Source: Actinomycetota bacterium (GTDB lineage: Bacteria; Actinomycetota; CADDZG01; JAHWKV01; JAOPZY01). From it: a DNA stretch of 64,000 bases. This document shows positions 28,085 to 55,653 of the stretch, in pieces (position 1 is the first letter of the stretch; each line of letters begins with the position of its first letter). Location of the stretch: positions 1-64,000 of the forward strand of contig DASTWV010000009.1 of the NCBI GenBank assembly GCA_035765775.1, read 5' to 3'. The translations under genes and the position numbers were made by a program. The notes under the pieces were generated by a model, which was not told the origin of the DNA, searched no databases, and worked only from the letters and a program-made list of their open reading frames with translations.

Positions 28085-29539
28085 ATGGCCATCCACGCCC
28101 CCGCCTTCCCGCCCGATGCCGTCTGGTTGAACGTCGAGCGCCCCCTCACCACCGAGGATCTCCGGGGCCACATCGTGCTGGTCCACTTCTGGACCTACGC
28201 CTGCATCAACTGCCAGCACGCCCTGCAGACCCTGGCGGCCCTGGAGCGGGAGCTGGAGGGGGAGCCGCTGGTGGTCGTGAGCGTCCACTCGCCCAAGTTC
28301 CCCACGCAGCGGGAGGAGGAGCGGGTGCGCGAGGCGGTACGCCAGCTCGAGGTCCGCCACCCGGTGGTCCTGGACCCCGACTCCTCGATCACCCACAGCT
28401 ACGCCGTGCGGGGCTGGCCCACCATCGTCTTCGTGGATCCCGCCGGCGCCATCCTGGGCGTCGGCCCGGGCGAGCCCGAGCCGCAGGCGCTCCTCGGGGT
28501 CATGCGCCAGGCGCTCGCCCAGTACCGGGTCCAAGGGGTGCTGACCGGCGGGCCGCTGCCGATCCACGTCGAGCCCCCCGAGCCCCGCACGCTGTCGTTC
28601 CCCAGTGCCGTGGTGACCGGCACGGTGGCCGGCACCGAGTGCGTGATCGTGGCCGATGCCGGCCACAACGAGGTGGCGGTGTTCGACCACGCCGGGGCCA
28701 AGGTCCGCCGCCTAGGGTCAGGGGTGCTCCACCGGCCCTGCGGGCTGGCCCTGGTGGACGGCACCCTCTACGTCGCCGACACCGGCAACCACGTGGTCCG
28801 TGCCTTCGATCTGGCCAGCGGCGACGTCACCAGCGTGGCCGAGGCCCCCGGTCTGCGCTCACCCTGGGGCCTGGCCTGGGACGGCAGCCGGCTCTACATC
28901 GCCGGGGCCGGGACCCACCAACTGTGGGTCTTCGACCCGGTAACCGCCGACACGAGCCTCCTGGCCGGGACCGGGGCCGAGGGAGGCCGGGACGGCGGGG
29001 CAAGCGCGGCCACCTTCGCCCAGCCCAGTGGCCTGGCCCTGGCGGGCGACACCCTCTATGTTGCCGACAGCGAGACCTCCAGCATCCGGGCGGTCACCGA
29101 CCTGGACGGCACCCCGCAGGTCCGGACGATCGTGGGCCGGGGGGACCTCTTCGGCTTCGGCGACCGCGACGGCGCCGGTCCGGTGGTGGAGATGCAGCAC
29201 CCGATCGGCATCGCCACCGGGGCCCCGGGGGGCGGGCGCCTGTACGTCGCCGACACCTTCAACCACAAGGTGCGCACCCTCGATGCCGCCACCCGGGCCT
29301 GCCGGACCCTCTTCGGCAACGGGGACTCCGAGCTGGCACCGGGCGGCACTCCGGGCACCGGGCTGACCTCGGCCAGCCCCACCCTGCCCGCCTTCATCGA
29401 GCCCGAGGGCCTGGCGTGGTGGCCCGGGCCGGACCTCGGCCCGGACAACGGCGGCGAGCTCCTGGTCGCCGACACCGGCAACCACCGCCTCCTGGCGATC
29501 CGCCTGAGCGACGGCGCCCGCCGGGTGCTGGTCGGCTGA
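28085..29539 (+). CDS. Thioredoxin-like plus NHL-repeat protein (NHLRC2-like)
   Basis: A 484-residue protein with two parts. Residues about 1-150 form a TlpA/thioredoxin-like domain with the pair C40-I-N-C43 in FWTYACINCQH, and the cis-Pro region RGWPTIVFVDPAG. Residues about 165-484 form a beta-propeller of NHL repeats (repeated LYVADTGNH- or LYVADTFNH-type strands, at least five). The same order and the same CINC motif characterise animal NHLRC2 and its bacterial relatives, whose biochemical role is unsettled. No signal peptide is visible, so it is probably cytoplasmic. Start: ATG at 28085 with no strong Shine-Dalgarno. Confidence 0.85.
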   Translation: MAIHAPAFPPDAVWLNVERPLTTEDLRGHIVLVHFWTYACINCQHALQTLAALERELEGEPLVVVSVHSPKFPTQREEERVREAVRQLEVRHPVVLDPDSSITHSYAVRGWPTIVFVDPAGAILGVGPGEPEPQALLGVMRQALAQYRVQGVLTGGPLPIHVEPPEPRTLSFPSAVVTGTVAGTECVIVADAGHNEVAVFDHAGAKVRRLGSGVLHRPCGLALVDGTLYVADTGNHVVRAFDLASGDVTSVAEAPGLRSPWGLAWDGSRLYIAGAGTHQLWVFDPVTADTSLLAGTGAEGGRDGGASAATFAQPSGLALAGDTLYVADSETSSIRAVTDLDGTPQVRTIVGRGDLFGFGDRDGAGPVVEMQHPIGIATGAPGGGRLYVADTFNHKVRTLDAATRACRTLFGNGDSELAPGGTPGTGLTSASPTLPAFIEPEGLAWWPGPDLGPDNGGELLVADTGNHRLLAIRLSDGARRVLVG

Positions 29540-29577: not shown

Positions 29578-31662
29578 CTAGTGGCCGGCCTGGACGGCGT
29601 TCAGCGCCTCGTCCAGTGAGCTGACCCCCAGCACGTCGGCCACCGGCCCCTTGGCCTCCTGCGTCTCGCTCGCCGGGACGATGAACAGCCTGGCCCCCTG
29701 GTCGGCGGCCCCGATGGCCTTGAGGTCCACGTCGCCCACGTCGCCCACGGCCCCGGCTCGGTCGATGGTGCCGGTGGCGGCGATCGCCCGGCCCCCGGTG
29801 TCGAGGTTGCCCAGGGCGTCGGAGATCGCCAGGGCGTAGACCAGCCCGGCGGACGGCCCCCCGATCGGGCGGTCCCGGAACGAGATCGTGAACGGCCCGG
29901 ATACCGAGATGTCCTTGGTCAGCAGGTCGACGCCGATGGCGTTCAGGCCGTCGATCCGCGAGCTGGTCACCTGCACGGCCACCGCCTGCCCATGGCGCAC
30001 GATGTGCAGCAGGAAGGCCGTGCCCGCCGGGTGGGAGCGCACCACCGCCTGCAGGTCGAACTCAGTACCCACCGATTGCCCGGCCACCCCGGTGATGAGG
30101 TCGCCGGTGCGCAGGACCGAGGCCGCGGGCGAGCCCGCCCGGACCCCGGTGACCTCGGCACCGTGCCCGGTCATGGTCACCTGCATGCCGTCGGCGGTGG
30201 CGGCCGCCGCGGCTGCCAGCATGCGGCTCTCCCGGAACAGGTCGTTCTCGAAAGCCTGGGTGCCCACCGCCGACGAGGGGATCAGGGAACGGTGGGGGTG
30301 GAAGGCCTCGGCGATGGTGCCGAACAGGGTGTGCTGGTCCGCCCGCACGGCCACCAGCAGGAACCTGCCCGAGACCGGGTGGACGGGCACTCCATTGATG
30401 GTGATGTCCTGCGAGATGTCGACCGCGGGGGTCGGCGACGCCACGTAGATGGGCGGGTGGTAGACGAAACCGACGACCAACAGCAGGAGCACGGCCGCCC
30501 CGATCCCCCCACCGAGCCGGGCCCGGTGCGCCCGCCAGGGCGACGGCCGGCCGTTCTGGAGCCGGGACTGCAGGGCGCGGGCCACGTCGTCCATGGTCAC
30601 GATGCCGGCGATGCTACCGCCGCCGTCGACCACCACTGCCGGCCTCGACGCCGCCTGCAGGGTGCCGAGCACCGCCCGGACCGGCTCGTCGGCCCCCAGC
30701 CGGGCGACCTGGGCTGCGGGGGTCATGGTCTGGGCGACGGTGCGGGCAGCGCGGTCGGCGGCGGGCACGTTCTCGGCCTGCTCCCGGGACAGCAGGCCGA
30801 CCAGGTTGCCGGCGGTGGTGACCGGGAACCACGCCGGCCGGGCGCCACCGGCAGCGAGCGCGTCGGCCACCGAGGAGGCCGCCTCGACGGTGCGCGGGGG
30901 CGCCATGACGTCCCGGACCCGGGCGGCGCCGAACGCCCGGTCCACGGTCCCGGCGGCCAGTTCGGAGCGGGCCGCTTGGACGATGAAGACTCCGATGAGG
31001 CAGAGCCAGAGGCCGGTGGTCAGGGCGTCGGCGGTCAGGTTGGCGATGCCCAGCCCGCACAGCACGAGGCCGAAGCCCTGGCCGAGGATCCCGGTGGTGG
31101 TGGTGGCGCCGGCGAAGTTGCCCTTGTGGCGCCACAGCAGCGCCCGCAGCATGCGCCCCCCGTCCAGGGGGAGGGCGGGGACGAGGTTGAACGCCAGCAG
31201 CAGCAGGTTGACCGCCGCCAGGTAGACGAGCACACCCCGGACGGCGGCCGGGAGCCCGGCATGGACCGCCGCCCACCCGGCCGCACCGAAGGCGGCGAGC
31301 AGGACGGCGGTTACTGCTGGGCCGGCGGCGGCGATGCGCAACTCGGCCCCGGGCGAGGGGAACATGCCGACGAAGCGGGCCACCCCGCCGAAGAGCCACA
31401 GCGTGATGCCGTCGATCTGCATCCCCTCCCGGAGCGCCCGGAGGGCGTGGCCCAACTCGTGGAGCACGACCGAGGCGAACAGCGCCAGGGCCGCCACCAC
31501 GGCCATCACCAGGTAGGCGCCCGAACTCAGGCCGGGGAAGTTCTCCGGGAAGATCCGGGTCTGCAGGGACCAGACCAAGAACACCACGATCGGGACCCAC
31601 GACCAGCTGATGTCGATGGGGATCCCGCGGACCCGCAGGACCGTGATGCGGGTCGAGTGCAC
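29578..31662 (-). CDS. Fused site-2 metalloprotease, CBS pair, PDZ and Lon-like serine protease
   Basis: A 694-residue membrane protein combining two proteases. Residues 1-235 are a site-2 protease (M50) core with zinc motif HELGH at 68-72 and the third ligand in NLVPALPLDGG (Asp167). Residues about 248-370 are a CBS pair, as in some M50 enzymes. A membrane helix lies at about 386-401. Residues about 480-566 form a PDZ domain. Residues about 567-694 form a Lon-type (S16) protease domain like YlbL, with Ser604 in GGPSAG and Lys648, a spacing of 44 like that of Lon. The reading frame is continuous. The start is a GTG at 31662; TACACT ends 6 bases upstream, indicating a leaderless message. A role in processing membrane-bound regulators or clearing membrane proteins is inferred. 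Confidence 0.85.
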   Translation of the reverse strand: MHSTRITVLRVRGIPIDISWSWVPIVVFLVWSLQTRIFPENFPGLSSGAYLVMAVVAALALFASVVLHELGHALRALREGMQIDGITLWLFGGVARFVGMFPSPGAELRIAAAGPAVTAVLLAAFGAAGWAAVHAGLPAAVRGVLVYLAAVNLLLLAFNLVPALPLDGGRMLRALLWRHKGNFAGATTTTGILGQGFGLVLCGLGIANLTADALTTGLWLCLIGVFIVQAARSELAAGTVDRAFGAARVRDVMAPPRTVEAASSVADALAAGGARPAWFPVTTAGNLVGLLSREQAENVPAADRAARTVAQTMTPAAQVARLGADEPVRAVLGTLQAASRPAVVVDGGGSIAGIVTMDDVARALQSRLQNGRPSPWRAHRARLGGGIGAAVLLLLVVGFVYHPPIYVASPTPAVDISQDITINGVPVHPVSGRFLLVAVRADQHTLFGTIAEAFHPHRSLIPSSAVGTQAFENDLFRESRMLAAAAAATADGMQVTMTGHGAEVTGVRAGSPAASVLRTGDLITGVAGQSVGTEFDLQAVVRSHPAGTAFLLHIVRHGQAVAVQVTSSRIDGLNAIGVDLLTKDISVSGPFTISFRDRPIGGPSAGLVYALAISDALGNLDTGGRAIAATGTIDRAGAVGDVGDVDLKAIGAADQGARLFIVPASETQEAKGPVADVLGVSSLDEALNAVQAGH

Positions 31663-31706: not shown

Positions 31707-31904
31707 CTAGTTGTCGGTGACCGCCTCTTTGCCCTTGGCGGCGGCGTCCTTGACCTCGCCCCAGGCTTCCCGGGCCTTGCCCTTGGCCTGGTCCAGGTGG
31801 CCCCGGCCCTCGAGCTCCGGGTCGTCGATGTGCTCGCCGAGCTTCTCCTTGACTTCACCTTTGGCCTCGTCGTACTTCGCCTTCACCTTCTCTTCCAGGT
31901 CCAT
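31707..31904 (-). CDS. CsbD-family stress protein
   Basis: A 65-residue hydrophilic protein of the CsbD family (KAKYDEAKGEVKEKLG, then GRGHLDQAKGKAREAWGEVKDAA), rich in Lys, Glu and Ala with two related helical segments. Family members are made under general stress and have no assigned activity. The ATG at 31904 has AAAGGAGG 7 bases upstream, which excludes the longer frame. It lies between the fused protease gene and hemD, all on the minus strand. Confidence 0.85.
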   Translation of the reverse strand: MDLEEKVKAKYDEAKGEVKEKLGEHIDDPELEGRGHLDQAKGKAREAWGEVKDAAAKGKEAVTDN

Positions 31905-31982
31905 GAGGGGACCTCCTTTCGATCGGTTCCTCATGCACCTGCCTACCCACGGTGCCCCCCGACCATGCCCCCAATCGGGGCC

Positions 31983-33741: not shown

Positions 33742-34359
33742 TTACTCCGCGTCCTCCTGCCGGGAGAACCGCCGGTCCGGGATGAACCACATCAACGCCA
33801 CCCCGGCATAGAGGGCATAGGCAATCCACGGCTTGATCGCCGAGAGCAGCACCGCCGCCAGATAGATCACCAGTGAGGCGTAGCCCTTGCGGTCGTCGCC
33901 GATGGCCCGGGCCACTGCCGAGTCCTTCCCGTTGCAGCGGACCAACGCCTGCACCAGCACCGAATAGGCGACCCCCGCGCCCAGGCACACCGTCCCGTAG
34001 GCGGCCGCGGGGAGGCTGTGGTTGTACTCCTTGCTCACCCACTCGGTCATCACCGGGGTCAGGGACAGCCAGAACAGCACGGAGAGGTTTGCCCACATCA
34101 CCGCACCGTTGATGCCGCGGGCCGCCCGGAGCAGGTGGTGGTGGTTCACCCAGTAGATGCCGACGTAGGTGAAGCTCAGGATGTAGACCAGCAGGGCGGG
34201 GAGCTCGGCCCGCATGTCCTTGAAGCTGGAGCCCGCCGGTGCCTTGAGGTTGAAGGCCATGATCGTGATGATCACGGCCATCACCCCGTCGCTGAAGGCC
34301 TCCACGCGGGCGGCAGCCCGTTCCTCCCGGCGCTCCGCCGTCCCCTCTTCGCTTGCCAT
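33742..34359 (-). CDS. TMEM175-family (DUF1211) putative potassium channel
   Basis: A 205-residue membrane protein with six predicted helices and the family signature RVEAFSDGVMAVIITIMAFNL in the first helix, where the FSD motif is essential in characterised members. Bacterial TMEM175 proteins form tetrameric potassium channels. The conserved second-helix region SFTYVGIYWVNHHHLL is also present. GATAAT ends 9 bases before the ATG at 34359, so the leader is very short. It is divergent from a small membrane-protein gene; a 16-base palindrome (34401-34416) lies between them and may control both. Confidence 0.85.
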   Translation of the reverse strand: MASEEGTAERREERAAARVEAFSDGVMAVIITIMAFNLKAPAGSSFKDMRAELPALLVYILSFTYVGIYWVNHHHLLRAARGINGAVMWANLSVLFWLSLTPVMTEWVSKEYNHSLPAAAYGTVCLGAGVAYSVLVQALVRCNGKDSAVARAIGDDRKGYASLVIYLAAVLLSAIKPWIAYALYAGVALMWFIPDRRFSRQEDAE

Positions 34360-54681: not shown

Positions 54682-55653
54682 TTAGGTGGGCTGCCCGGCC
54701 AGGGCGGACTGCTTGCGGGCCTTCTCGTAGCGGTTGAGGCCCAGCAGGTGGAGCAGGAAGAGGATCATCGATACCACGAACACAATCGCCGCCGGCGTGT
54801 GGAGGTCGCCCCGGACCCGCACGGCGACGATGGTCACCGGTGGCGGGGAACCCGGGTGGCTCGAGACATCCAGGATCAGGATCGGCACCCCGGCCCGGAC
54901 CAGGGAGCCGGCCGCGGGCCCGAAGGCGGCCACCACCCCGGAGTCGGTGGACGGCAGGTTGAAGCTCTGGCCGTTGGCGGTCGCCTCCAGCACGTCCTGG
55001 CCGTTGCTGACGGTATCGCCGACCTTCACCAGGTACTTGACCACCGTGGCGGTCTGCAGGTTGTTGGGGAGGCTCTGCTCGCTGACCGGGGCCGAGGCGA
55101 CGCCCTTGGCCACCGCGATGATGGAGGCCTTGCCCTTGACCGTCGCCGGCTGCATGCGGATGTCGGTTTCGGTGAACTTGCCGGTCTCTAGGCCGATGGT
55201 GCCCTGGATGAGCGGCTTCACCTGGGCAAGGACACCCGGGATGGGGCTGATGGCGTTGCCCACAAGGCCGTCCATGACGGTCTTGACCTCCGACTCCTCG
55301 GCCAGCTCGTCATCGGCGCTCTTGAGGTCCGCCAGGTACTTGCCCTGTGTGGGCTTCACCCACGGCGGGCTGTTGGGATAGCTGGACAGGTCGTACGTGG
55401 TGCCGTCGAAGCTGGCCTTGGTGATGCCCGGCCCCACCCCGATGCCCTGCCACGCCGTGGCGTTCCCTGTCGGGCCGAGGGCGCTGATGGTCCAGATGAA
55501 GCCCATGATCACCAGGCAGCCGAAGGTCACGCAGGCCTCTACGAGGTAGGCGAGCTTGGCGCCGAGGATCATCGACAGCAGCATGTAGACGAGGAGGAAG
55601 AGCACGCCCGGCACTGCGATGGTGGCGATGACGCCCTTGGTGAACACGCTCAC
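54682..55653 (-). CDS. Membrane protein with lipoyl/HlyD-like domain, last gene of the bc operon
   Basis: A 323-residue protein. Two N-terminal membrane helices (about 7-30 and 35-58), an extracytoplasmic region, a biotinyl/lipoyl-like fold at about 200-263 (VVKYLVKVGDTVSNGQDVLEATANGQ, then SGVVAAFGP, then VRAGVPILILD), and a C-terminal helix (about 286-305) with a basic tail. The hairpin that would carry a modified Lys has none, so it resembles the HlyD-type use of the fold. It follows the cytochrome c gene after 49 bases on the same strand, so a role in or around the bc complex is inferred. I know no named family. Confidence 0.6.
   Translation of the reverse strand: MSVFTKGVIATIAVPGVLFLLVYMLLSMILGAKLAYLVEACVTFGCLVIMGFIWTISALGPTGNATAWQGIGVGPGITKASFDGTTYDLSSYPNSPPWVKPTQGKYLADLKSADDELAEESEVKTVMDGLVGNAISPIPGVLAQVKPLIQGTIGLETGKFTETDIRMQPATVKGKASIIAVAKGVASAPVSEQSLPNNLQTATVVKYLVKVGDTVSNGQDVLEATANGQSFNLPSTDSGVVAAFGPAAGSLVRAGVPILILDVSSHPGSPPPVTIVAVRVRGDLHTPAAIVFVVSMILFLLHLLGLNRYEKARKQSALAGQPT

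Follow-up and report, generated by a model that had tools for sequence, protein, structure and literature searches.

M50 site-2 protease and PDZ-S16 peptidase domains joined in one polypeptide at least twice in little-known actinobacteria

Within the window, by which we mean the whole stretch of 64,000 nucleotides that was analysed, the gene of interest lies on the reverse strand and runs without an internal stop (Table 1). Along its 694-residue product Pfam places Peptidase_M50, CBS, PDZ_2 and Lon_C in this order, and the Pfam, NCBIfam and PDB sequence matches all back the reading as a fusion gene. The AlphaFold (AF2) model of the whole fusion, built from a 53-row alignment, has a mean pLDDT of 94.3 and a pTM of 0.78 and contains six core helices, the CBS region, a helix at residues 375-400 and, behind it, the PDZ and S16 folds; a second model of residues 402-694 alone reached a pLDDT of 93.7 and a pTM of 0.89. 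Every domain of the fusion is supported by the predicted structure together with Foldseek comparisons. The first-pass annotation of this DNA had read an M50 core, a CBS pair, a PDZ domain and a Lon-like domain in one frame, which Pfam, the model and homologues confirm, and the HELGH and LPLDGG motifs, Ser604 and Lys648 all lie where it had placed them. Elsewhere in the window, a gene convergent with the fusion gene (28085-29539) encodes a single protein in which NHL repeats follow a thioredoxin-like domain. Positions 33742-34359 encode a homologue of the TMEM175 family of potassium channels. The membrane protein encoded at 54682-55653, close to genes for cytochrome b and cytochrome c assembly, matches a biotin/lipoyl domain in its later part (1e-06), an odd combination.

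Table 1. Features of the fusion gene and its surroundings, with the loci of the shorter fusions. Positions refer to the window unless a locus is named.
Feature	Position	Strand	Evidence or remark
Fusion gene M50 - CBS pair - TM7 - PDZ - S16	29578..31662	(-)	694 aa, GTG start, single open frame
M50 site-2 protease core, residues 1-244, six membrane helices	30931..31662	(-)	Peptidase_M50 1.5e-17; Foldseek
HELGH zinc-binding and catalytic motif, residues 68-72	31447..31461	(-)	H68, E69, H72 identical 73/73
LPLDGG motif, residues 164-169, third zinc ligand D167	31156..31173	(-)	D167 identical 73/73
CBS pair, residues 245-372, cytoplasmic by topology	30547..30930	(-)	CBS 9.2e-07; Foldseek CBS-pair matches
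Seventh membrane helix, residues 375-400, taking the chain outwards	30463..30540	(-)	AF2 model; hydrophobic peak 383-401
PDZ domain, residues 492-565	29968..30189	(-)	PDZ_2 2.2e-07; Foldseek
Lon-like S16 peptidase domain, residues about 577-694	29581..29934	(-)	Lon_C; Lon structure matches
Ser604, putative S16 catalytic serine in GGPSAG	29851..29853	(-)	identical 55/55 aligned PDZ-S16 proteins
Lys648, putative S16 catalytic lysine, 44 residues past Ser604	29719..29721	(-)	identical 55/55
CsbD-family gene, directly upstream of the fusion, 44-nt gap	31707..31934	(-)	CsbD 9.3e-14
CBS-less M50-PDZ-S16 fusion loci	L132:7801-9600, L133:7633-9498, L138, L164		four genomes

The M50 core scores 64.1 bits against a cut-off of 27.2 for Peptidase_M50 (PF02163), and Foldseek matches it to mjS2P, the S2P of M. 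jannaschii (3b4r; E 4.7e-12, TMt 0.81), and also to SpoIVFB. Not only the residues of the two motifs but also N152 are identical in all 73 aligned M50 cores. By these motifs and the fold match, the fusion would be a putative protease acting within the membrane. The CBS region reaches 29.5 bits in the window protein (Pfam cut-off 24); its first repeat is detected by Pfam only in homologues and not in the window protein itself, and the AF2 model of the latter displays the pair. Structures matched by this region in Foldseek are CBS pairs with AMP/ATP. A nucleotide-type motif, G-h-h-[ST]-x-x-D, is present in the second repeat of 15/15 fusions, and the first repeat of the fusions has no Asp in this motif.

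Behind the CBS pair the chain is predicted to cross the membrane outwards. The seventh helix is flanked in the window protein by five K/R residues before and none after it, and an excess of K/R before the helix is seen in all 15 fusions; the CBS domain of the CBS-bearing S2P subfamily lies in the cytoplasm (PMC6242693). Hence, the PDZ and S16 domains are predicted to be outside the cell, as in YlbL, which gives an answer to the question of the side of the Lon-like domain that the first-pass annotation had left to a topology check.

Within this outer half, the PDZ domain resembles those of Lmo2051 (3i18, rmsd 1.2) and RseP, and the model of residues 402-694 matches RseP and YlbL-type PDZ domains as well as Lon proteolytic domains, among them 8dvh and 1xhk for the S16 part. 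Lon_C scores 20.6 bits in the window protein (3.7e-04), 0.5 bit short of its cut-off of 21.1, which homologous fusions pass with 34.2 and 31.6 bits. A profile of 27 PDZ-S16 relatives finds Lon structures with an E-value of 2.5e-17 and the YlbL PDZ domain with 5.7e-16. The serine-lysine spacing is close to that of the YlbL dyad, Ser234 and Lys279, which are 45 residues apart (PMC6051672). With the zinc site kept in all cores and the dyad in all PDZ-S16 proteins compared, the claim of two complete catalytic centres is borne out. No activity could be measured in vitro for YlbL from which the membrane segment was missing (PMC6051672), so the S16 activity of such proteins stays putative. The best NCBIfam match is SepM_fam_S16 over residues 388-670 (7.9e-30), but the SepM equivalog scores 104 bits and does not reach its cut-off of 200; by sequence, the C-terminal half appears to be a relative of SepM, and we do not call it SepM. 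The RseP equivalog TIGR00054 likewise falls below its cut-off (20.9 bits vs 147.55), with the PDZ part alone matched. Neither Pfam nor NCBIfam finds an AAA match in the 694 residues, and hence no AAA+ ATPase domain before the S16 domain.

The halves of the protein are separate genes in other lineages, as they would be if a chance frame or an artefactual join had brought two genes together at this locus. A frameshift or an assembly join, which the first-pass annotation had itself considered, was checked and is excluded by 14 more complete colinear proteins, all of similar length, and one that is split over two contigs. The active sites are invariant in these copies, and a tree built from 73 M50 cores unites the window-type fusions in one clade (99/98), with stand-alone M50-CBS proteins next to it. 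An artefact is thus already refuted and retains next to no probability.

The window-type architecture was found in 16 copies in 14 genomes, namely that of the window, G001, G002, G004, G005 (two copies), G006 (two copies), G007, G013, G021, G028, G043, G056, G139 and G003, the last with its copy broken across two contig ends. The complete copies share 39-53% identity with the window protein. Sampling was within the phylum of the window, where the fusion occurs in three classes, in 10/24 genomes of the window's own class and in 2/3 and 2/27 genomes of the two others; at E <= 1e-90 it was found in none of the 349 genomes of the class of G095. A scan of contigs with short exact peptides returned M50-CBS relatives and no fusion, a search too narrow to indicate absence. 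Besides the fusion, the window's genome encodes one separate M50-CBS gene and one separate PDZ-S16 gene; therefore, the fusion is an addition and not a replacement.

The same two proteins are also linked at the level of gene order. In the class of G219 the M50 and PDZ-S16 proteins are encoded by adjoining genes, and in total 28 distinct gene pairs were found, spread over 27 genomes, of which G001 belongs to the window's own family. The M50 gene comes first and on the same strand in 28/28 pairs, with none reversed or opposed, and in 27 of them the stop and start codons share 4 nt (ATGA/GTGA) or 1 nt (TGATG), a sign of translational coupling. Beside several of these pairs (L123-L129, L133, L135), in many genomes, lies a convergent gene whose product resembles anthranilate synthase component II. 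Four genomes of this class (G219, G081, G112 and G352) have both proteins in a single chain, about 585-640 residues long; a Pfam search of two of these short fusions finds M50, PDZ and Lon_C but no CBS. The CBS-less fusions are nested within the clade of the pairs (99/93) in the tree of M50 cores. A single origin was rejected when all fusions were held as one clade (p-AU 0.000155). Hence, M50 and PDZ-S16 proteins were joined at least twice independently, in little-known actinobacteria. In the tree of the C-terminal halves the CBS-less fusions fall into two groups, so there may have been three fusion events. Of the first-pass reading, the fusion itself stands, but the pairing is no isolated case, because a coupled operon exists in a sister lineage and a second fusion arose without the CBS pair.

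Among the stand-alone M50-CBS genes closest to the window-type fusions are some, at L034, L035 and G095, that have protease partners of another fold. In two soil actinobacterial MAGs (AC_44, L034:564-2785; AC_11, L035:2485-4715) the M50-CBS gene overlaps by 4 nt a gene for a membrane-anchored trypsin-PDZ protein of the HtrA type (S1), and this gene pair may be a site-1/site-2 operon with an S1 protease. In G095 an HtrA-type gene lies divergently, directly beside the M50-CBS gene. Judged by gene context, M50-CBS proteins repeatedly partner an extracytoplasmic PDZ serine protease, whatever its peptidase fold. As HtrA-type S1/PDZ genes adjoin these relatives, the constant partner appears to be a PDZ serine protease and not S16 specifically.

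Each part of the fusion has a known counterpart. As in S2P subfamily 3 (mjS2P MJ0392, SpoIVFB), an M50 core of six helices, bearing the HExxH and DGG motifs, is directly followed by a cytoplasmic CBS domain, and the best Foldseek matches of the fusion are structures of this kind (3b4r, 8vjl). Known members of the subfamily end after the CBS domain and have no extracytoplasmic PDZ domain (PMC6242693), whereas the fusion continues with helix 7, PDZ and S16. The C-terminal half shares with the YlbL/SepM family the order of membrane helix, PDZ and S16 domain and a serine-lysine dyad with a spacing of 44 instead of 45; members of that family are stand-alone proteins with one helix, while here the helix is the seventh and a metalloprotease stands at the head of the chain. 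RseP (S2P subfamily 1) also combines an M50 core with extracytoplasmic PDZ in one chain, but its PDZ pair is inserted in the M50 protein and it has neither CBS nor a second protease, whereas PDZ and S16 of the fusion follow C-terminally after the CBS pair. ATP-dependent Lon has an AAA+ ATPase before its S16 domain, which the fusion does not. A working relation between an extracytoplasmic PDZ serine protease and an M50 protease is known from SpoIVB-SpoIVFB and DegS-RseP, as separate proteins with S55 or S1 peptidases; here the peptidase is S16, in one chain or a coupled gene pair. The first-pass annotation did not know this combination, in line with the open-access literature searched, in which no earlier description of an M50-CBS-PDZ-S16 protein was found; a survey of microbial PDZ proteins treats PDZ-M50 and PDZ-Lon_C as separate families and does not mention CBS (PMC6411480). 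The fusion is a new architecture made from known families, and its convergent origin is the surprising element.

The pairing, the topology and precedent together suggest a site-1/site-2 cascade. In the two-protein precedent, SpoIVB is the PDZ serine protease acting at site 1 and SpoIVFB the M50-CBS protease acting at site 2 (PMC6242693). We give about an even chance to the fusion being a single-chain site-1/site-2 protease, with an outer cut by S16 and a subsequent cut by M50 in the membrane. The extracytoplasmic PDZ domain would recognise a membrane-anchored substrate by its outer part, the S16 serine-lysine peptidase would clip this part, and the shortened stub would be handed to the M50 metalloprotease core of the same molecule, whose cut within the membrane would release or destroy the cytoplasmic side. 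Where present, the cytoplasmic CBS pair would probably tune the M50 step via adenine nucleotide binding; its loss in the second fusion fits the ability of SpoIVFB to work in vivo without its CBS domain (PMC6242693). We infer that both sites are active and act sequentially on one substrate, and that the CBS pair binds nucleotide. Two proteases that each act on a different substrate would fit the shared location as well. The wider proposal is that a single polypeptide houses an entire regulated-intramembrane-proteolysis cascade, with the substrate passed from the outer to the inner active site, that this arrangement arose two or more times out of a partnership of M50 and PDZ proteases, and that a Lon-type S16 peptidase is its site-1 enzyme; this we hold more tentatively, at somewhat below even likelihood.

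The gene neighbourhood hints at stress and names no substrate. In G001, of a sister genus, the fusion has the same CsbD neighbour before it as in the window (L073:6923-7198, CsbD 1.4e-20). A second family has a cluster of four genes (L079:4751-9812, L080:2526-7557, L081:93-5145), in which genes for a PknB-like kinase, a membrane protein of ~160 residues and a thioredoxin-like lipoprotein without a Pfam match come before that of the fusion protease, and two copies in this family adjoin Hsp20 genes. Otherwise the neighbours vary between families, without a conserved neighbourhood that would name a substrate, and no anti-sigma or sigma family is among the best 25 neighbour families listed. The CsbD genes in two genomes of the window's family and the Hsp20 genes would suit a two-sided membrane quality control, in which the outer S16 and the inner M50 clear misfolded membrane proteins or left-behind signal peptides independently and in no fixed order, and RseP-type M50 proteases are known for the removal of signal peptides (PMC8144685). 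We consider this unlikely, though the foremost of the alternatives, as an S16 domain without an AAA+ unfoldase makes processive degradation improbable and the strict pairing with PDZ serine proteases of two folds resembles a site-1 role. For the first-pass suggestion that the chain degrades proteins on the other side of the membrane, this means that the outer placement holds, but that a limited site-1 cut is likelier than degradation, given the missing ATPase and the HtrA-type pairing of the relatives.

Less probable still is that the PDZ-S16 half serves chiefly to gate or activate the M50 core, either by filtering for size or through cleavage of a linker or partner, and not as a site-1 protease for substrates. 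The PDZ domain of RseP, whose structures are matched by that of the fusion, is thought to be a size-exclusion filter, and SpoIVB activates SpoIVFB through cutting the inhibitor SpoIVFA (PMC6242693). However, a purely structural gate would not need the serine and lysine that all 55 PDZ-S16 proteins retain, and no SpoIVFA- or BofA-like partner was recognised among the best 25 neighbour families listed. More remote is a role in the maturation of secreted peptides such as pheromones, where M50 would detach a signal peptide or pro-peptide from the membrane for trimming by S16. Pheromones derived from lipoproteins are released by M50 proteases such as Eep, the gene before the fusion encodes a lipoprotein in four genomes of one family, and the best NCBIfam match of the C-terminal half is the pheromone-processing SepM family, but the score stays below the SepM cut-off and none of the genes next to the fusions was recognised as coding for a small peptide.

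In the current understanding of regulated intramembrane proteolysis, separate proteases act in a relay, and debate continues on how the second cut is licensed by the first. One chain, a coupled operon and a second, independent fusion form a natural experiment on this relay; the fusions and coupled pairs suggest that the physical coupling of both cuts matters and that the CBS pair is dispensable. As a compact protein the fusion lends itself to work on structure and substrate transfer. For the PDZ-S16 proteins of actinobacteria, which are widespread but little characterised, the findings suggest a role as partners of M50 proteases. They also suggest that one molecule could carry out a two-step signalling or clean-up cascade which other bacteria divide between two proteins.
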